A stretch of DNA of 64,000 nt, taken from Phyllobacterium bourgognense (lineage in GTDB: Bacteria > Pseudomonadota > Alphaproteobacteria > Rhizobiales > Rhizobiaceae). Each line of letters begins with the position of its first letter. The stretch's first letter is position 1. Where the stretch lies: the NCBI RefSeq assembly GCF_003337575.1, contig NZ_QPJM01000011.1:1-64000 (forward strand), in the 5' to 3' direction. The notes beneath the pieces were generated by a model. It did no database searches and was not told the DNA's origin. It was given only the letters and a program-made list of their open reading frames with translations. This document shows, piece after piece, positions 27,662 through 35,297 of the stretch. Position numbers and translations under genes: made by a program.

Positions 27662-28639
27662 CTAAGCGTCGGCTTGGAAGCCTTCAAGCTGCGCCAATAT
27701 AGTGCAATTCAATCCATCAGATGCATAAGTCAGATCAACCTTCGTCAGCGTGCCGGCGACGCCACTTTTTATAAGTCTCGTGCCCAATCCCTCGACCGTA
27801 GGTGGTACCACAGGTGGACCGTTTTTCTCTCGCCAATCCAGTTTAAATGCCGCCTCCTCATCCATTTCGGCAATTCCCCATTCAATGATGATCTGGCCAT
27901 CCGTCTGGGAGAGCGCGCCATACTTGAAAGCATTGGTCGTGAGTTCATGCAGCAGCATAGCCAGGGACAATGCGGACTGAGGACCGACCTGCAATTCTGG
28001 ACCGGTCAAAATGAACTGACTGCTGCGCTTGTCCTCGTCCAGATTGATTGCCTTTTCGACCAGGCTACGAACATCAATCCGCTCGCCATAACCGGTCAAA
28101 AGCAAGTCATGCGCTTGTCCCAGGACACGAAGTCTCTGGCTGATCGAAAGGCGCGCACTCTCGATATTATCCGCACGGCGCAACGACTGATTGACCAGAC
28201 CCTGGACCATGGAAAGCTGGTTTTTCAACCGGTGACTTAGCTCCTGGCTCAACATCGACTGTAGCTCTTCCGCCCGCTTTTGCTGCGTCCGGTCTCGAAC
28301 AATCTTGAGGAAGCCTTCAGCGGCACCATTGTTCTGAAGCGGCATCATTTCACCGCTGGCCCAAAATCTTGATCCATCCTTGCGCATATGCCAGCGTTCG
28401 TCTGTAGCACGACCGTTTTTAAGGGCATTGGCCATTTCCTTGCGCGGGACGTCGTGCGCACGGTCGTCGCCTGTGAAAATGATGTCGGCGGCAAGGCCCA
28501 CCACCTCATCCTCGGTCCAGCCGAAGATATTTTCGGCCCCGATGCTCCATGACGTGACATTGCCGGAAAGGTCAGAGGTCAGAATGGCGTAGTCGATCGC
28601 GCTTTCAAGAACCATTTCTGCGATACGTGGGTTTGTCAT
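27662..28639 (-). CDS. PAS-domain HWE-type sensor histidine kinase
   Basis: A 325-residue cytoplasmic kinase. Residues about 8-120 form a PAS domain with PAC motif (YAILTSDLSGNVTSWSIGAE, RWHMRKDGSRFWASGEM, FLKIVRDRTQQKRAEE). The phosphoacceptor is H136 in QELSHRLKNQLSMVQGLVNQ, and the ATP-binding part carries LHELTTNAFKYGALS and GLGTRLI. This is the HWE/HisKA_2 class common in Rhizobiales. There are no membrane segments, so it senses an internal or diffusible signal such as light, redox or a ligand; PAS residues do not tell which (no LOV-type NCRFLQ motif). No response regulator gene is adjacent. Confidence 0.93.
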   Translation of the reverse strand: MTNPRIAEMVLESAIDYAILTSDLSGNVTSWSIGAENIFGWTEDEVVGLAADIIFTGDDRAHDVPRKEMANALKNGRATDERWHMRKDGSRFWASGEMMPLQNNGAAEGFLKIVRDRTQQKRAEELQSMLSQELSHRLKNQLSMVQGLVNQSLRRADNIESARLSISQRLRVLGQAHDLLLTGYGERIDVRSLVEKAINLDEDKRSSQFILTGPELQVGPQSALSLAMLLHELTTNAFKYGALSQTDGQIIIEWGIAEMDEEAAFKLDWREKNGPPVVPPTVEGLGTRLIKSGVAGTLTKVDLTYASDGLNCTILAQLEGFQADA

Positions 28640-29516: not shown

Positions 29517-29696
29517 TCACCTCTGTCTCGCGCTCCAGCCGGCCGCCATGGCGTCGTTCCGCAATTGAATAGTTTTATCGTCTCGCATATCTACCCAATT
29601 GATCATGTTGAACCGCGGCTTAATGGCCTTTTCACATTCGTCCCATCGATTGGGATCTCCAGACTCTAGTGTTGGCCCCGCTACACGTGCAGCCAT
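29517..29696 (-). CDS. Small protein, paralogue of its upstream neighbour
   Basis: A 59-residue frame beginning MAARVAGPTLESGDPNRWDE and containing KAIKPRFNMI. The segment PTLxSxDPNRWxECExAxxxRF matches the protein encoded at 29681-29929, so the two are tandem paralogues. Their genes overlap by 16 bases in different frames, implying translational coupling. It ends shorter than its sister, lacking the GWSEGEVRRALSDMI region except NDAMAAGWSARQ. I do not recognise the family. Confidence 0.5.
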   Translation of the reverse strand: MAARVAGPTLESGDPNRWDECEKAIKPRFNMINWVDMRDDKTIQLRNDAMAAGWSARQR

Positions 29697-29929
29697 AGGT
29701 CGCCCTCTTCGCCAGTAATCCCCCTTGCTCGTATCATGTCCGAAAGAGCACGCCTTACCTCCCCCTCGCTCCAACCGGCGTTAACTGCCTCTACAATCAA
29801 ATCTTTCAGGACTTCGGGAGACCGATCCTCGCTTTCGGCAATCACCGTAAAGCGCTCTAGCAAGGCCCGCTCGCACTCAAGCCAACGATTGGGATCGATT
29901 GAAGGTAATGTCGGGGCTATTACTGTCAT
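29681..29929 (-). CDS. Small protein of unknown function
   Basis: An 82-residue protein, MTVIAPTLPSIDPNRWLECE then RALLERFTVIAESEDRSPEV and AVNAGWSEGEVRRALSDMIR. GGGAGATCCGA precedes the ATG at 29929. It is helical and acidic, with no membrane or metal motif. A paralogous shorter protein overlaps its 3' end. The GWSExEVxxAL pattern recurs in short rhizobial proteins of unknown role. It begins a block of very small genes. Confidence 0.6.
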   Translation of the reverse strand: MTVIAPTLPSIDPNRWLECERALLERFTVIAESEDRSPEVLKDLIVEAVNAGWSEGEVRRALSDMIRARGITGEEGDLWLHV

Positions 29930-30001
29930 TCGGATCTCCCAGTTCAATCTGTCATGCGTCGCGAAGAGTCTTTTGCAGAACCCCCACCGTTAAAATCTAT
30001 C

Positions 30002-30184
30002 TCATAAAGAGTGTGTGAGTTCAGCCTCGACGTTTTTGCGACTGCCTCCGTGTTTAATTATCAGCTCTAGGGCGCGCTTCTTGCTTATGTCGAACTTGAA
30101 CATCAGATACTCGACTTCATGATCCTCGCTGGCTGAGACTTTCGACCGATCCCGATTAGCTTGTTTCTGCCTGTTGTCGGCCAT
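30002..30184 (-). CDS. DUF3606 protein
   Basis: A 60-residue protein. The pattern DRSKVSASEDHEVEYLMFKF then ISKKRALELIIKHGGSRKNVEAEL matches DUF3606, a short helical family abundant in rhizobia. Its function is unknown. The gene lies just downstream of the tandem paralogues on the same strand. Confidence 0.85.
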   Translation of the reverse strand: MADNRQKQANRDRSKVSASEDHEVEYLMFKFDISKKRALELIIKHGGSRKNVEAELTHSL

Positions 30185-30362
30185 TGCATTTACTTCCGCC
30201 TGCGAATTACACAGCTAACAGTATTGAGCGGAAATCGTTCCACGCCTGGCGTACGTGACCTAATAAGGTGTCGCGCTGATGCCAAGCTTCTTTTATCCGC
30301 ACCAGAGCAACTGAAGGCGACCCGCAAGAGCCGCCTTCAAATGTCCTAACGAAAAGTTGAGT

Positions 30363-30698
30363 TTACAGACGGAATATCGCCAATGGGTACCAGTATCCGT
30401 CATTATGACGACGATATCCGCGGCGTTGTTCGCGATAGCCACGGTGGCCATTCCAGTAGCCGCGACGGTCGCGACGGTTCTCAAAACGATCATTGCGGCG
30501 ATCATAGCGCTCCCAGCGCTTCTTTCTATCATTCCGCTGTTCATATCGACGATCATCTTTGTGCTGTACCCGCACGATATTGGGGGCGGCAGGAACAGCT
30601 TGCACTGCGACCGGGGCTGCCGAGGCTGTAACAAGTGATGTCAGGCCCATGAAGATGGCCAAAAATCCTGCAGTTAATAGCGAAACAATATTTTTCAT
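30363..30698 (-). CDS. Secreted Arg/Tyr-rich protein, BA14K-like
   Basis: A 111-residue protein starting at the ATG at 30698 with AGGAG well placed. A signal peptide (IVSLLTAGFLAIFMGLTSLV, cleaved near ASA-AP) is followed by a highly basic, low-complexity stretch of repeated R-R-D-R/R-G-Y units. The end, RRHNDGYWYPLAIF, is the motif that in BA14K-type rhizobial proteins precedes a membrane-spanning glycine-rich tail; here that tail is absent and the protein stops. It is probably an envelope or periplasmic protein of unknown role. The frame upstream of 30698 is not part of the gene. Confidence 0.65.
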   Translation of the reverse strand: MKNIVSLLTAGFLAIFMGLTSLVTASAAPVAVQAVPAAPNIVRVQHKDDRRYEQRNDRKKRWERYDRRNDRFENRRDRRGYWNGHRGYREQRRGYRRHNDGYWYPLAIFRL

Positions 30699-30945
30699 AG
30701 TATCTCCTGTTAAACGAGATACGACAGGTGCGCCTTTACTTCTTAACGGGGGATGAATGGAAAACGCATTGGTCCGTGCTTTCGAGCTTCGGTATTGTTC
30801 CCCAAGACGGAAAGGTCTTTGGTCCATACAGAACTGGCCAAATCGGGAGTATTTTGGGGCCGCCGGTAGCCCCCACGTCGGTTTTGGCCTGAAGAACACT
30901 TCTTTTCCTAAAAGGCCTTCGGGAGGGTCGGGCTTTGCGGTGATG

Positions 30946-31119
30946 TCATTTTGTTTGATCGCGCTCAGCTTCTTCAAGGCGTCGCAGAAATTCTCTGAAT
31001 CTCTCATCTTCGGCTAAAGGCTTGTGATACGACCGCAATGCTTCACCGTACTCCGGCCGCTTTAGTTGCCAGTCAATAATTCGCGCACCTTTGGGCTTTT
31101 CTTCGTCACTCAAATTCAT
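30946..31119 (-). CDS. Small helical protein, paralogue of 31676-31846
   Basis: A 57-residue frame beginning MNLSDEEKPKGARIIDWQLK and ending EDERFREFLRRLEEAERDQT-K. The C-terminal E-(D/N)-(E/D)-RFxExLxRLxEAExxQ block is shared with the protein at 31676-31846, so both belong to one unnamed family. The ribosome binding site is weak. An ATG further upstream would add basic residues with no match to the sister protein. Confidence 0.5.
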   Translation of the reverse strand: MNLSDEEKPKGARIIDWQLKRPEYGEALRSYHKPLAEDERFREFLRRLEEAERDQTK

Positions 31120-31317
31120 TGTCCGTTGGTCTCTCAACCGTTGTGTGGCGCGTTGGTTCCAGTGCCGAAACTGCAACCATCGGGATGGGTTCATGAAATC
31201 GCGTTGCATTGACTTGCTCCGTCTTCTGGCGGACATTATCAAGTCGCCAGGCATGTAACGGCCACTGGCGTTTGAGAGATGGAACGTGCTCCCGCCTAAA
31301 CGTATGGAGGGGCTTCC

Positions 31318-31614
31318 ATGCTGTATTCAAGCATCGATCATATTTCTTCTGAAAATGACTGGCACATCCTGGAAAAGGCCCATCAACGAGCCTGCCAGAT
31401 TCTTGGCCGTGATCCGAAATACCATCCTCTCGCAGAACAGGTGGCACGTACGGTGATCATGTTTTTTGCGCGAGGCGAAAGAGACTACGGGAGACTGGCT
31501 AGTATGACCGCAAAACGGGAGATCAATTTGTTTGAGTTCGAGACAGAGACGATGGGAACCAACGTCCGCGACATGTCCATCATAGTAGCAAGCCGTCCCA
31601 AGTACTTCCACTGA
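31318..31614 (+). CDS. Conserved-looking small protein
   Basis: A 98-residue protein with GGAGGGG a few bases before the ATG. It is soluble and helical in the first 60 residues (SENDWHILEKAHQRACQILG, ARTVIMFFARGERDYGRLAS). I do not recognise a family. It is the only plus-strand gene within the minus-strand small-gene block and separates the two paralogues at 30946 and 31676. Confidence 0.6.
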   Translation: MLYSSIDHISSENDWHILEKAHQRACQILGRDPKYHPLAEQVARTVIMFFARGERDYGRLASMTAKREINLFEFETETMGTNVRDMSIIVASRPKYFH

Positions 31615-31675
31615 CTCGCGACTTGGTCCCACCCCCGCCGGGATCAGCAGGGCCCGACTGTGATAGGTAGTAAAA

Positions 31676-31846
31676 CTATGTCTTTTGCTCTTTCTCGGCT
31701 TCATCAAGCCGGTCTAAAAGCTCCTGAAATCTATCGTCATTCTCGGGCACACTATGCCCGGTTTGCAAATGCTCCGCAAAGTCCTTGCGGCGGCTACCAC
31801 GCTTGAACACCTCGGCGGGTGCTCGGATTTGTCCCTTTTTGGTCAT
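31676..31846 (-). CDS. Small helical protein, paralogue of 30946-31119
   Basis: A 56-residue frame, MTKKGQIRAPAEVFKRGSRR then KDFAEHLQTGHSVPENDDRF and QELLDRLDEAEKEQKT. The C-terminal amphipathic helix matches the sister protein 550 bases away. It is too short for standard gene callers. Function unknown; the charged helix suggests a protein-interaction or coiled-coil role. Confidence 0.5.
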   Translation of the reverse strand: MTKKGQIRAPAEVFKRGSRRKDFAEHLQTGHSVPENDDRFQELLDRLDEAEKEQKT

Positions 31847-32216
31847 CCCAATCCGCCTGAATTTGGCTATTAGCTCTCAACAGATCCGCGAGGGGATCGT
31901 TCCGCTCTGTCCTCCCGTGGACGCACGACGGGTGGGAGTGCCCTCAGAAATAAAACAAACAAAAAGGCGCGCTTACAACACCGTCAGAGTTTGATGGAAT
32001 ACTTTTAGCTGCTATGGTCCGAACGGTTTCGCCTAATCATTACACTCCATTAGATTGCAAATTCTATGACGACTATTTCAGCTGACATGCTTCAACTAGT
32101 TGAACTTGTACGCTTTGGCGGTAATTGCCGTCATCGTAGCGATTTGGCTGTTGTTTATAGCGCGGCAACGGATGCGATGACATCGCTTGCCACGACTAGG
32201 AAGTCCGGAGCGTACC
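31847..32216. other. Mostly gene-free stretch with a possible membrane peptide
   Basis: The segment up to 32179 contains one frame encoding LYALAVIAVIVAIWLLFIAR, a perfect membrane helix ending in a stop. Its nearest starts are a TTG or, one base out of frame, an ATG at 32066 (MTTISADMLQLVE). It may be a tiny membrane protein or its frameshifted relic. Nothing else is recognisable. Confidence 0.35.
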
Positions 32217-32417
32217 ATGACTGAAGATGACAGGCGGCTCATGACGGAGATTTGCGCGCAGGCCGATATCGCTTATCAGTCCCGTCCGAAGAGAACGAAT
32301 GCTATGGAGCTTGCCAAAGCACTCGCTACGGATTTTCCTCATCGAAAAATTGAGGAAATTCATCAGAAAATCAACAATGTATGGAGGCTAAGAGGGTTAC
32401 TTTGTTGCGACCATTAA
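32217..32417 (+). CDS. Small protein, paralogue of 34006-34203
   Basis: A 66-residue protein. MTEDDRRLMTEICAQADIAY, RPKRTNAMELAKALATDFPH and EEIHQKINNVWRLRGL align along their whole length with the protein at 34006 (MTDDDRxxLExxAQA, PKRTxxxxLxxALAxxFPHR, ILxKMKHVWKDSGLYW). CCGGAG precedes the ATG. The family is unknown to me. Each copy is close to a CxxC zinc-ribbon gene, so a two-gene module may have been duplicated. Confidence 0.6.
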   Translation: MTEDDRRLMTEICAQADIAYQSRPKRTNAMELAKALATDFPHRKIEEIHQKINNVWRLRGLLCCDH

Positions 32418-32464
32418 AAACACGCAGTCCATAGTGGTGACTTGGCGCGCCCGGAGGAAGCTTC

Positions 32465-32689
32465 ATGACTATCGATATATGCCCTATCTCAGGTGATCCG
32501 GTCGCATCTTTGCCGACCACCGGGGATTACATCGAGTTCGACTGCCCAACTTGCGGACGTTTTCGTATTTCGGGCTCAGCACTGGAGGCCATGACCGAAT
32601 TGCCTCGTCAAGATAAAGAGGCGTTTCTAAATAAGGCCAGGAGTAACGCCCAAGGCGGTGACAGCATACCCTTTATCAGAGATGTATGA
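32465..32689 (+). CDS. Small zinc-ribbon-like protein
   Basis: A 74-residue protein after an excellent ribosome binding site (GGAGGAAG). Cysteines at 6, 27 and 30 (CPISGDP, FDCPTCGRF) suggest half of a zinc ribbon, with the C6/C-x-x-C set as ligands. The rest (ISGSALEAM) is a short helix. It lies between the 32217 gene and a one-helix membrane peptide, all on the plus strand. Function unknown. Confidence 0.65.
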   Translation: MTIDICPISGDPVASLPTTGDYIEFDCPTCGRFRISGSALEAMTELPRQDKEAFLNKARSNAQGGDSIPFIRDV

Positions 32690-32719
32690 GACTGTGTGTC
32701 CAATCGGAGGCCGCTCGCG

Positions 32720-32836
32720 TTGAATGACAAACTCGAACGGCGCAAATACAGAACACCGTGGTGGCTTAAGGTCTGCATCTTCATCAGTGGTGTGGCCATC
32801 GCACTGATCATAGCGAGCATTCTAACCCGGTTGTGA
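32720..32836 (+). CDS. One-helix membrane miniprotein
   Basis: A 38-residue frame starting at a TTG with CGGAGG nine bases upstream. It reads KLERRKYRTPWWLKV then CIFISGVAIALIIASILTRL, a basic N-terminus followed by one membrane helix, so an N-in orientation is expected. It follows the zinc-ribbon gene by 30 bases and is likely co-transcribed. Too short for standard gene finding, but ribosome binding site plus topology make it credible. Confidence 0.5.
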   Translation: MNDKLERRKYRTPWWLKVCIFISGVAIALIIASILTRL

Positions 32837-32964
32837 AGGGCTGCGGGCCTGCGACTGCTCGGCAGCAACACTAGGGGGTGAAGAACGTTCCATCGTACTC
32901 CTCTGGACAGCGCAATAATGCATGCCATAATTAGACTACGGTGGGTTCTGACGGGGGGCGTCAC

Positions 32965-33177
32965 ATGGAGCGCCTGGATCACAAGCTGGACTGCAAAGCC
33001 TGTGGGACTATCTATCTGGATATTCCCGACGACGTGCGCAATGTGACGCCTATCCATTGCTCGTCATGCGGTCAGTTCATTGGTTATTGGGGCGAGCTCA
33101 ATCGCGATTTCGACGGACAGGGCGGCCAGGACGGTGTCTTCGAATTGAAGGATGGTCAGATACTGCGCAAGGCGTAG
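32965..33177 (+). CDS. Zinc-ribbon protein, paralogue of 33645-34016
   Basis: A 70-residue protein with GGGGGGCG just upstream of the ATG. LDHKLDCKACGTIYLDIPDD, then TPIHCSSCGQFIGYWGEL and QGGQDGVFELKDGQ. Two CxxC pairs make a classical zinc ribbon. The protein at 33645 repeats this plan residue by residue over its first 70 positions. Such ribbons bind nucleic acid or partner proteins; which applies here is unknown. Confidence 0.65.
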   Translation: MERLDHKLDCKACGTIYLDIPDDVRNVTPIHCSSCGQFIGYWGELNRDFDGQGGQDGVFELKDGQILRKA

Positions 33178-33259
33178 TAAGAATTGCCTATCTTCTACGC
33201 GGAACTGAATCCCCAAGGACCCGTTTCGCGCTGATGGACGAAAGACACTTCAAAACATC

Positions 33260-33535
33260 ATGACCAGCCACCCTGGAAGAATGCGCGTGGTCACATCAAC
33301 CCTTGAAGCTGCAGAGCAAATCCTGACTGACTGGCCGGTTGAAGAGGTCGAGTCCCTGTCCGCTGCGAAATACGCTCTCCTAGCGTGCCTTGAGGGAAAC
33401 CGCTCACCCGGTGCCGCACGTTTCGCATTCATTCAGGCTGCCAGGGAAGCTGGCAACTATGTGGATGAGCCGGTACGCGGACCTCCCACGGGCAAATCCT
33501 TTCGGTGGCATAAGGGCAAGCCAAGACGTGTCTGA
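33260..33535 (+). CDS. DUF982 protein
   Basis: A 91-residue protein of the DUF982 family, common and multi-copy in Rhizobiaceae. The pattern is EAAEQILTDWPVEEVESLSA, YALLACLEGNRSPGAARFAF and IQAAREAGNYVDEP. The function of the family is unknown. It sits between the two zinc-ribbon paralogues on the same strand. Confidence 0.85.
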   Translation: MTSHPGRMRVVTSTLEAAEQILTDWPVEEVESLSAAKYALLACLEGNRSPGAARFAFIQAAREAGNYVDEPVRGPPTGKSFRWHKGKPRRV

Positions 33536-33644
33536 TTTCCGCTTGACCTGAGGTTGGGTTTCGTCTGCTGGCAGACATGGTTGCAAACTGAAATTTTTAT
33601 AATATTCGTATGCAGGTCAGTGCCTCTTTCATGGGATCGCGAAG

Positions 33645-34016
33645 ATGTCTCAGGAACTGGACCACAAGCTGGACTGCCCGAACTGCAAGACCATCTACCT
33701 TAGAATTCCCAAGGATGTATCGGGCCACACACCCATTAACTGCACTAGCTGCGGCGAGTACCTTGGATATTGGGGAGAGTTGGAAGCCGACTTCTTCAAG
33801 CAAGGCGGAATGAACGGCGCGTTCCGGCTCGACAAGGGCCAGTTTGTCCGGATCGACCAAAATGCAGTTCACGCGCATGAGTTGGCGAGCGGTGGCCAAG
33901 AACAGTTGCGGGTGGCACTAATCGAGTCTGAGAGACCGGAAGCGCCGGCAAGTTTAGGGCTAGACCGGGCGATTGAGCCTCTTGGTGTAAAGCCTAGACC
34001 CATCCATGACCGATGA
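33645..34016 (+). CDS. Zinc-ribbon protein with C-terminal extension
   Basis: A 123-residue protein. Residues 1-71 carry two CxxC pairs (LDCPNCKTIYLRIPKD, INCTSCGEYLGYWGEL) and match the 32965 protein. The final 50 residues have no counterpart there and look disordered (ESERPEAPASLGLDRAIEPL). The stop at 34014-34016 overlaps the ATG of the next gene at 34006, pointing to coupled translation. The extension may be a read-through of lost non-coding sequence after a stop was destroyed. Confidence 0.6.
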   Translation: MSQELDHKLDCPNCKTIYLRIPKDVSGHTPINCTSCGEYLGYWGELEADFFKQGGMNGAFRLDKGQFVRIDQNAVHAHELASGGQEQLRVALIESERPEAPASLGLDRAIEPLGVKPRPIHDR

Positions 34017-34203
34017 CGACAGGCTCAATCTTGAAATCAATGCGCAGGCCAAATTTGCCAGCGATGCGTTGCCGAAAAGGACAGACGTGTCAAAGCTCGT
34101 TCCTGCGCTCGCCCGAGAATTCCCACATCGAAGCTCGGAACAGATATTGTTGAAAATGAAACATGTCTGGAAGGATAGCGGGCTGTACTGGAACGCCGAC
34201 TGA
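34006..34203 (+). CDS. Small protein, paralogue of 32217-32417
   Basis: A 65-residue protein, MTDDDRLNLEINAQAKFASD, PKRTDVSKLVPALAREFPHR, ILLKMKHVWKDSGLYWNAD. It is homologous end to end with the protein at 32217. Its start overlaps the upstream zinc-ribbon gene by 11 bases. The pairing of this family with zinc ribbons in both places supports a functional link. Unknown function. Confidence 0.6.
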   Translation: MTDDDRLNLEINAQAKFASDALPKRTDVSKLVPALAREFPHRSSEQILLKMKHVWKDSGLYWNAD

Positions 34204-34223
34204 GAAAATGGGCTCTGGCGGCC

Positions 34224-34278
34224 TCAGAACTTCACCTTGAAGCAAGTTGCTAGGCTGACACCTCGCCATAGAGCGCGT
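34224..34278 (-). pseudogene. Duplicate scrap of an autotransporter C-terminus
   Basis: An 18-base string TCAGAACTTCACCTTGAA (34224-34241) and CGCCATAGAGCGCGT (34264-34278) recur in the same order at 34573-34590 and 34610-34624. On the minus strand these encode ALYGEV and FKVKF-stop, the end of an outer-membrane beta-barrel. Only this scrap remains here. Confidence 0.55.
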
Positions 34279-34572
34279 GCTGAGGTCGCTGACCATGCTG
34301 AGGTTTTCGACCTAGAGGAATTGAAGGCTGGGAATTGGCGCTTTTATTTCTGAGGAACATTCCCGCTCGTCCTGGTGTTGTTAGCTAAGTTGAGGGGGCT
34401 TGGCACTCTTCAGCAAGAGGCTCGGCGTCGGACGGTTACCACGATATCGGGCCTCACCTTTTGTTAACCATACAGGCGCACGCTTTGAGTGCTGACCATA
34501 GTGCCACTGGGTCGGCACCCGGCCTGCTTTCGTATTGTGTATCCGGCAGGTCGGGCAGACGCTTACTAGTGG

Positions 34573-34910
34573 TCAGAACTTCACCTTGAATCCGGTCGTT
34601 CCGACACTTCGCCATAGAGCGCGTATTTGTCATCGGCCCAGCTGTATGACCCGCCAGCGCCGACGCCGCCCCAGGTGCGATCGCTCTCATTGGCGAAATT
34701 GACGCCGGCAAGGTCAACCTGCGAACCATCGAGGAATTCATGATAGAGGTTGGCGAGCCCGTAGACATTGCTCCGGGCCATCCTGCCCGAAGCGTCCTGC
34801 CATGCATTCTGGTAGTCGGCGGAGACGCCAAGGCGTCCCTTCAGACTGTCGCTCTTGTCCAGCGAAACGTCCGCGCCGAAGGGATCGGTGAAGTCATCAA
34901 AATCGACATT
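34573..34910 (-). pseudogene. Autotransporter beta-barrel domain remnant
   Basis: The minus strand reads FTDPFGADVSLDKSDSLKGR, LGVSADYQNAWQDASGRMAR, SNVYGLANLYHEFLDGSQVD and RTWGGVGAGGSYSWADDKYA then LYGEVSE. This is the C-terminal autotransporter barrel. A frame change after LYGEVS separates the terminal GTTGFKVKF-stop, with loss of about 15 residues. The upstream end is cut at about 34910 where an unrelated, opposite-strand fragment begins. No passenger domain is present. Confidence 0.7.
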
Positions 34911-34911
34911 G

Positions 34912-35297
34912 GAATAACGGATGCACTGTTTCGCACCTTCCTCATTTATGTCGCCAGCTCGGGCCAACCGCCGCACGAGCTTATCAAGCCGTTTTTCTCC
35001 GAACTCGCGTTCATCACGGCGTTTGAAAGCATGACCGTGGTGCCTGTCAGCTTGGGCGAACTGAAGGATGCACGCGTGCGTCTTACCGACGACTTGCTCA
35101 CACGGCTGGATGATAACGCTATGCGTTTCTTGCTTTCACTGCATGATACCGAGCCGGATTTTGAAGCCATCGGCATCCCGCAGGCGGCAAACCTGCCCGC
35201 CGTCAGATGGAAACTGCTCAACCTCACGAAACTGAAAGAGCAGAACCCGGAGAAACACGCCCAGCAGGGCCAAGAGATTGAGAACATATTGTCTTAG
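34912..35297 (+). pseudogene. C-terminal remnant of an AbiEii-type nucleotidyltransferase toxin
   Basis: The frame reads ITDALFRTFLIYVASSGQPP, HELIKPFFSE, FESMTVVPVSLGELKDARVR, RLDDNAMRFLLSLHDTEPDF and LPAVRWKLLNLTKLKEQNPE. This is the C-terminal half of AbiEii/AbiGii-family proteins, toxins of type IV toxin-antitoxin systems. The nucleotidyltransferase core with its GS-x10-DxD motif is missing: upstream of 34912 the sequence is antisense autotransporter. No AbiEi-like antitoxin gene is adjacent. Confidence 0.65.

Follow-up and report, generated by a model that had tools for sequence, protein, structure and literature searches.

The block of very small genes at positions 29517-34203 of a 64,000-nt stretch of Phyllobacterium bourgognense DNA (hereafter the window, on contig C11 of the 5.6-Mb genome) is probably an accessory island of the general stress response (GSR), in which amplified NepR-like feedback proteins would be combined with a partner regulon under a CRP-type regulator. 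Inspection of the upstream regions reveals two putative promoter classes that interleave in the block, one carrying a motif of the sigma-EcfG type and the other a palindrome. The first-pass annotation had missed both promoter systems and the resemblance to NepR, and it is these features that make a role of the block in the GSR probable. Families are designated here by letter (A, DPNRWxECE; B, ERF; C, PKRT; D, zinc ribbon) and two further proteins by length (P98 and P74), and the searches for D and C cover a sample of 99 genomes comprising the P. bourgognense genome, its genus, family and order.

The motif searched was GGAAC-N16-17-GTT, which block copies spell as GGAAC-N17-GTT; the sigma-EcfG consensus published for Rhizobium etli, in the available part of PMC3892343, is GGAAC-N16-CGTT. 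Six copies fall in the 64-kb window, five of them within 30217-33225 (3 kb), where 0.22 would be expected from the 406 copies in the 5.6-Mb genome (Poisson P ~3e-6 for this stretch and ~0.006 over all such stretches). The five copies are as follows.

30217..30241, minus strand: EcfG-type motif of the DUF3606 operon, GGAAC-N17-GTT, beginning 57 bp before the ATG
31136..31160, minus strand: EcfG-type motif of B1, also present in loci L067 and L068
31879..31903, minus strand: EcfG-type motif of B2, from the motif scan
32867..32891, minus strand: EcfG-type motif pointing away from D1, not followed by any clear gene; also in L066 and L067
33201..33225, plus strand: EcfG motif of DUF982, GGAAC-N16-CGTT exactly, from the motif scan

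Of the five, four precede DUF3606, B1, B2 and DUF982 on the correct strand, each beginning 41-59 bp ahead of the start codon. The motif of the DUF3606 operon occupies the same position in P. trifolii (L069), and its exact form is absent from L066 and L067. As a separate observation, an antisense or small RNA running across the genes for the membrane peptide, P74 and C1 could start from the motif at 32867-32891 (minus strand). Two features of the pattern count against our reading: three of the four gene-preceding motifs (TGTT or GGTT) are without the C of CGTT, which only that of DUF982 has, and the pattern is not enriched genome-wide, with 406 copies versus 768 for the reversed control. Since the reversed control is the commoner, only the local cluster and the motif positions are given weight here.

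In a set of 21 regions, the motif stands before B in 9/11 cases, DUF3606 in 5/8, DUF982 in 7/25 and A in 5/16, and is rare before D (2/32), P98 (1/9) and C (0/17); at D genes it is found oftener on the opposite strand (8/32), and control patterns (reversed, complemented, swapped) are rare in the same regions. A separate search of B loci recovered the motif in 16 of 21 distinct loci, always at -46 to -59, a count that partly covers the same genes as the 9/11. These 21 derive from 30 loci after leaving out L210 and L211 (B gene already counted), L209 (not B), L206 (another genus, motif present) and five loci of the M type described below (motif in 0/5). Among the five B loci without the motif, L196, L214 and L217 have a doubtful start or a contig end. 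Within the block, no such motif was found close upstream of P98, C1, C2, P74, the membrane peptide, D1 or D2, nor of A on its own. The genome holds PhyR, NepR and an ECF sigma factor together on contig C14 (Pfam), and its phyR has GGAAC-N17-GTT upstream, reading TGTT and so, like three of the gene-preceding motifs of the block, without the C.

The block encodes two B proteins.

30946..31119, minus strand: B1, NepR-like, 57 aa, paired with B2 by phmmer and placed by profile comparisons
31676..31846, minus strand: B2, NepR-like, 56 aa, paired with B1 by phmmer and placed by profile comparisons

The start of B1 is most likely at 31119 rather than 31254, because the protein then aligns with B2 and has the EcfG motif just upstream. 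B2 ends in DDRFQELLDRLDEAEKEQKT, and the NepR of the same genome has PARFLDLLEKLDEAERNH. Comparison of 36 B sequences with 16 NepR sequences by hhalign gave a probability of 80, E 1.4e-5 and a score of 31.9, against at most 18.9 for 60 column-shuffled NepR alignments and 14.2 for the reversed alignment. Because NepR had entered the profile during the three search rounds that produced this B set, the comparison was repeated with a NepR-free set of 32 B sequences, for which only B1 and B2 had served as queries. The repeat returned a probability of 86, E 5.5e-6 and a score of 34.0 (shuffles at most 18.6; reversed 10.8). An intermediate set, termed M, aligns with B at a probability of ~97 (97.6 in the first run), and M-type proteins are also recovered, at E-values from 3e-9 upward, with a profile built on 16 B proteins. 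This B-only profile reaches canonical NepR at E 0.002-0.006 in 4/20 genus genomes.

It is possible, if rather doubtful, that the likeness of the amphipathic B helix RFxxLLxRLDEAE to NepR is due to chance and that the B proteins belong among the ordinary small stress proteins under sigma-EcfG control, in which case the block would be simply a stress-gene cluster. The stretch common to B and NepR is indeed mostly one helix, and B members also draw matches of comparable weakness from unrelated Pfam families. B proteins also fall below the cut-off of the Pfam NepR family (PF18557), which 6/16 match at E <=1 (best 0.018) and for which the first member scores 12.4 bits against a cut-off of 25.7; for this reason we call B NepR-like and not NepR. 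That B is without the EIP stretch, that the B-only profile at E 0.01 misses canonical NepR in 16/20 genus genomes, this one included, and that the M-NepR probability of 96 is inflated, M loci having been chosen by weak NepR matches, all speak against relatedness as well. A chance likeness would have to account for a B-NepR score above all 60 shuffles and the reversed control in both runs, for the match to the intermediate family and for the canonical NepR proteins found from B alone, and we prefer the reading of B as NepR-like feedback proteins. None of the nine B matches in this genome lies on contig C14, where canonical NepR sits with ecfG and phyR. The M-type NepR-like small proteins (MAAK...VVRDQ...IPKRFLDLLDRLDEAE) occur in many genus genomes (L177-L187 and L203-L208), the EcfG motif being found at none of the five loci scored, and are possibly undescribed NepR paralogues.

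The remaining genes of the block, and the kinase on its left, are given below.

27662..28639, minus strand: PAS-HWE histidine kinase (Pfam HWE_HK E 5e-18), with relatives also in loci L066 and L069
29517..29696, minus strand: A1, DPNRWxECE family, 59 aa, its start overlapping the A2 end by 16 nt
29681..29929, minus strand: A2, DPNRWxECE family, 82 aa, paired with A1 by phmmer
30002..30184, minus strand: DUF3606 gene (Pfam PF12244 E 8.4e-11)
30363..30698, minus strand: gene for a secreted basic protein, 111 aa, no Pfam family; EcfG motif not found
31318..31614, plus strand: P98, 98 aa, family unnamed, no Pfam match, adjoining D in several other loci
32217..32417, plus strand: C1, PKRT family, paired with C2 by phmmer
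32465..32689, plus strand: P74, 74 aa, an open reading frame (ORF) carrying a CxxC
32720..32836, plus strand: membrane peptide, 38 aa from TTG (46 aa if from GTG at 32696)
32965..33177, plus strand: D1, two-CxxC zinc ribbon, 70 aa, with only a degenerate palindrome upstream (by eye)
33260..33535, plus strand: DUF982 gene (Pfam PF06169 E 3e-12)
33645..34016, plus strand: D2, zinc ribbon with a C-terminal extension that is shortened in Candidatus Phyllobacterium onerii
34006..34203, plus strand: C2, PKRT family, overlapping D2 by 11 nt, predicted three-helix protein

In all, ~14 genes of 38-123 codons make up the stretch bounded by the kinase and an MgtC gene to its left and by an AraC-type regulator to its right, and the G+C of the block is ~52-53% versus 55-60% in the surrounding DNA. 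By this association the kinase is a candidate input to the stress response. DUF3606-A2-A1 is a probable operon, with DUF3606 first and A1 last. The ORFs of the first-pass annotation are found at their coordinates, its DUF3606 and DUF982 genes are borne out by Pfam, and its 38-residue membrane peptide is present from the TTG at 32720, subject to the alternative GTG; P98, P74 and the secreted basic protein were not in its list. The four families that it saw as pairs are homologous by phmmer in both directions (A1/A2, E 1.6e-8 and 3e-9; B1/B2, E 1.7e-5 and 1.2e-4; C1/C2, E 9e-13 and 5e-13; D1/D2, E ~1e-25).

Judged by their distribution, the pairs nevertheless belong to multigene families that are scattered through the genome and turn up together in islands; they are not parts of one module. 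D has matches in 19/99 genomes, all but one in the genus, with up to 17 in another genome and 12 in this one, the latter representing 11 genes since two matches are pieces of one broken gene. C has matches in 7/99 genomes, with 7 in this one. The B profile has matches in 20/20 genus genomes and 2/39 others, with 9 here and up to 12 per genome (E 0.01, M-type included); those in genus genomes G004, G011, G012, G015 and G017 are of M or NepR type only. Neighbourhoods were counted for 104 of the 127 D matches, entered by hand, and for the 53 stronger of 96 B rows or all 96; the counts include orthologous loci and hence are not independent. B lies within 1.5 kb of D in 28/53 of the stronger matches (0.24 expected) and 35/96 of all, and D also pairs with P98 or DUF982.

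These counts bear on the annotation's proposal of a single duplicated functional module, in which zinc ribbon and PKRT protein would make up a complex; we regard it as unlikely. The two families do cluster: of the 25 C matches, 14 lie within 5 kb of a listed D (0.46 expected), and D2 and C2, which overlap by 11 nt, stand side by side in three relatives and at a paralogous locus of this genome, C24. Seen from D, however, a C gene lies within 5 kb of only 16/104 listed matches (5/11 in this genome), leaving 88/104 without one, and D is spread over more genomes than C. The two window copies differ in order and promoters, with C1 and D1 0.55 kb apart and two other genes between them. The pairing is real, but only in the D2-C2 subfamily.

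In D, the cysteines C10, C13, C32 and C35 are invariant in 6 sequences. The D model (pLDDT 74) has 82 structure matches at E <=10, the best a TFIIB ribbon at E 0.71, and a PDB sequence search with D2 returned only an intein (E 0.09). Weak NCBIfam matches of D1 to the ECs_2282-type family NF047912 (E 1.9e-4; 21.3 bits against a cut-off of 37, D2 reaching 17.7) and to the LysW-like family NF041070 (E 2.1e-3) both lie below the cut-offs. Like the members of these families, D is a small putative two-CxxC ribbon; its scores set it apart from them. The AlphaFold model of C comprises three helices (pLDDT 83). A fold assignment for that model was rejected, Foldseek giving 3 matches (best E 6.8) and VIA-align Z <=3.7 (8 chains). 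Our best guess is that D is a small zinc-ribbon adaptor or chaperone and C its helical partner.

The second putative promoter class is defined by a 16-bp palindrome, TGTCYNCYRGNRGACA, which with one mismatch begins 83 bp before D2-C2 and 98 bp before P98, the latter distance being approximate (92-137 bp) because the P98 start varies.

31220..31235, plus strand: 7-2-7 palindrome CGTCTTCTGGCGGACA, between the divergent genes B1 and P98 and upstream of the latter
33562..33577, plus strand: 7-2-7 palindrome CGTCTGCTGGCAGACA, upstream of D2-C2

The genome contains nine palindrome core sites (control 5), six before D and one before P98; the site at C1:187338 (contig:position) appears by eye to lie inside a coding region. 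The perfect 16-mer has 45 sites in 9/20 genus genomes and none in 24 others, compared with 7 for a reversed-pattern control in all 44 genomes. Of these, 41 were examined, the other 4 lying near D matches by coordinates. Ten precede D, 11 precede P98, 3 precede DUF982, 1 precedes a gene with a CGPASIANAF stretch, and 9 separate a CRP/FNR-family gene from a 92-aa gene.

The CRP/FNR-family gene is the candidate source of the regulator. Its copy in this genome, at C1:475134-475826 with the palindrome TGTCCATTGGCGGACA, encodes a putative regulator with a Crp-type helix-turn-helix (HTH) domain (PF13545, E 8e-16) and no second Pfam domain, and among solved structures it matches the FNR/CRP chain 2zcw (E 8.5e-7); HTH domain and solved relatives together place it by homology in the CRP/FNR family. 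Regulator genes were sampled as 22 of the 23 full-length genes at >=50% identity and 6 of the 8 at <=44%. The palindrome, with 0-1 mismatch and 97-104 bp upstream, accompanies 17/22 of the former (L138 and L155 have it, for example; L149, L154 and the second L156 gene do not) and 0/6 of the latter. Most carriers have the recognition helix RRPWVTE, which two genes without a site have as well. All nine genomes with perfect sites are among the ten having the regulator, and none of the ten without it has such a site (hypergeometric P ~6e-5, ignoring kinship); the tenth regulator-bearing genome, G014, has a one-mismatch site at its regulator. Taken together, these data suggest that this CRP/FNR subfamily probably binds the palindrome.

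Several points weigh against the regulator and its regulon as drawn here. Seven of the 41 sites adjoin none of the listed families; 5/22 regulator genes are without the palindrome; D genes occur in genomes with neither regulator nor perfect palindromes; the EcfG motif lies within 150 bp at 0/9 CRP-gene sites, against 9/32 other palindrome sites (reversed control 4/41); the link of regulator to operator is a phylogenetic footprint, in which related promoters share ancestry and counts are not independent; and the identity of 77% inside the palindrome between D and CRP-gene promoters arises partly by selection. Outside it, the same promoters share 41% in the right flank and 29% in the left, with a common TAYNATTG after the palindrome. 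The shared ancestry of paralogous promoters, together with D sites sharing part of the right flank (57%), would suit a palindrome that is a gene-duplication leftover, a mobile-element end or an RNA hairpin and not a protein operator. We consider this improbable given that the palindrome precedes unrelated genes (D, P98, CRP and DUF982) at similar distances, upstream of a likely -10 (by eye), that left flanks stand at background identity, and that there are no perfect copies in the 24 other genomes or the 10 genus members without the regulator.

LuxR, NarL/FixJ, MerR and sigma-54 readings of the palindrome were weighed by eye; the sigma-54 reading was rejected on spacing, and the MerR-type reading was kept in view of the P98 palindrome, which has TTGAC on one side and a possible -10 on the other. 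One core site of this genome (C5:306272), ~7 kb from a D gene, adjoins a gene for a FixJ-type response regulator (L080 388-1472; NCBIfam E 5e-56) that is preceded by a receiver-like protein. Beside the regulator at C1:475134-475826 are near-identical repeats coding NKNQQFQEKCEAVFRPELRK units (L125 1095-1430). The 92-aa gene (MDRNAxYRRLL...EVEWPENSLT) that diverges from the regulator across a common palindrome is seen in L089, L090, L095, L097 and L100, the L097 copy having no Pfam or NCBIfam match. In L088, L091 and L104, the palindrome lies upstream of the CGPASIANAF protein, which resembles phytochelatin synthase, and a P98-like gene is opposite in L091 and at the L104 site.

In the GSR reading that we favor, stress would lead PhyR to remove NepR, and sigma-EcfG would then transcribe DUF3606-A2-A1, B1, B2 and DUF982. 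Accumulating NepR-like B proteins would then act on the switch in their turn, the likeliest route being occupation of PhyR (the other, binding of sigma-EcfG), and so limit the response in amplitude or time. A CRP-type regulator, probably autoregulated, would bind the palindrome next to the -35 element, a placement that would suit an activator site, and would control the zinc-ribbon D and P98 genes, plus C2 through its overlap with D2. As the palindrome stands back-to-back with a sigma-EcfG promoter in several loci, the islands would combine two inputs. More tentatively, Phyllobacterium may have amplified a NepR-like gene to as many as about ten dispersed copies, most fired by the sigma factor that they restrain and often beside zinc-ribbon or P98 genes under an autoregulated CRP-type regulator, which would amount to a distributed two-input brake on the GSR.

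Toxin-antitoxin pairs, phage-defence pairs or phage cargo are a very improbable explanation of these genes: small overlapping gene pairs and a weak similarity of D1 to YgiT-type zinc fingers (E 0.022) would fit, whereas no relative of D1 was found in viral contigs, no toxin-like Pfam or NCBIfam family scored above cut-offs in the proteins scanned, and several promoters are of stress type.

Like NepR and its paralogues, the B proteins are small and end in RFxxLLxxLDEAE, as does the NepR of this genome; unlike NepR, their genes are often beside zinc-ribbon or P98 genes and not beside ecfG. Among the three NepR homologues of Methylobacterium (M.) extorquens, two co-precipitated PhyR, two have putative sigma-EcfG-type promoters and none was seen binding sigma-EcfG, as far as the available part of PMC4814048 reports. 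The same part describes MexAM1_META2p0735 as binding PhyR, as a negative regulator when overexpressed and as having a sigma-EcfG-type promoter, the last of which B genes appear to share. B differs from these paralogues in being far more divergent and below the Pfam cut-off and in reaching up to 12 matches per genome. Compared with the R. etli promoters in the excerpt of PMC3892343, the block motif keeps GGAAC and the spacing; TGTT or GGTT in 3/4 motifs and targets that are unstudied small families set the block apart from that regulon.

A parallel also exists for the palindrome. CooA belongs to the CRP/FNR family. Its operator consensus is TGTC-N8-GACA in the available part of PMC7306483, and the 16-bp palindrome here likewise has outer TGTC and GACA and stands beside a CRP/FNR-family gene. 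The inner letters differ, most regulators here carry the helix RRPWVTE, and the likeness is one of operators. A search for exact spellings of the palindrome matched only that CooA paper, so that the operator was not found in the literature searched, where the negative is weak; further literature searches likewise turned up, among the titles listed, no paper on the small families of the block, with the same weakness. Membership in a known response is the ordinary side of the island, and its amplified NepR-like genes and second regulon are the unusual one. If the genus does carry numerous NepR-like genes that the stress sigma factor itself transcribes, it would lend itself to deletion and overexpression tests. 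The analysis also proposes a probable operator for one subfamily of CRP/FNR regulators and places a number of unnamed small-protein families, found next to DUF982 and DUF3606, in a first regulatory context.

Close relatives of the block occur in Phyllobacterium sp. KW56, Ca. P. onerii, P. trifolii CECT 7015 and P. zundukense, the families in the last having Dps, GGDEF, DUF982, PRC-barrel, ferritin-like and PAS-kinase genes as neighbors. Selection, measured as dN/dS against relatives, appears to be purifying on most block genes, which change chiefly at silent sites (dN/dS <0.5 in most comparisons). DUF3606 is an exception in one comparison (0.56), and the weakest signal is seen for A1, with 0.90, 1.52 and 0.41 for three pairs of which at least the first two are close, and for C1, where three close pairs give 0.47-0.80 and two distant pairs 0.16 and 0.40. 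D is also present on Mesorhizobium and Aminobacter plasmids. No EcfG motif was found at the corresponding place in two plasmid D loci examined; in another, from Mesorhizobium sp. AR02, a DUF982 gene is back-to-back with D and the motif lies between them, facing DUF982. Just beyond the block, repeated short stretches at 34200-34980 of the window read by eye like autotransporter beta-barrel ends, and the P. zundukense island has annotated autotransporter fragments.

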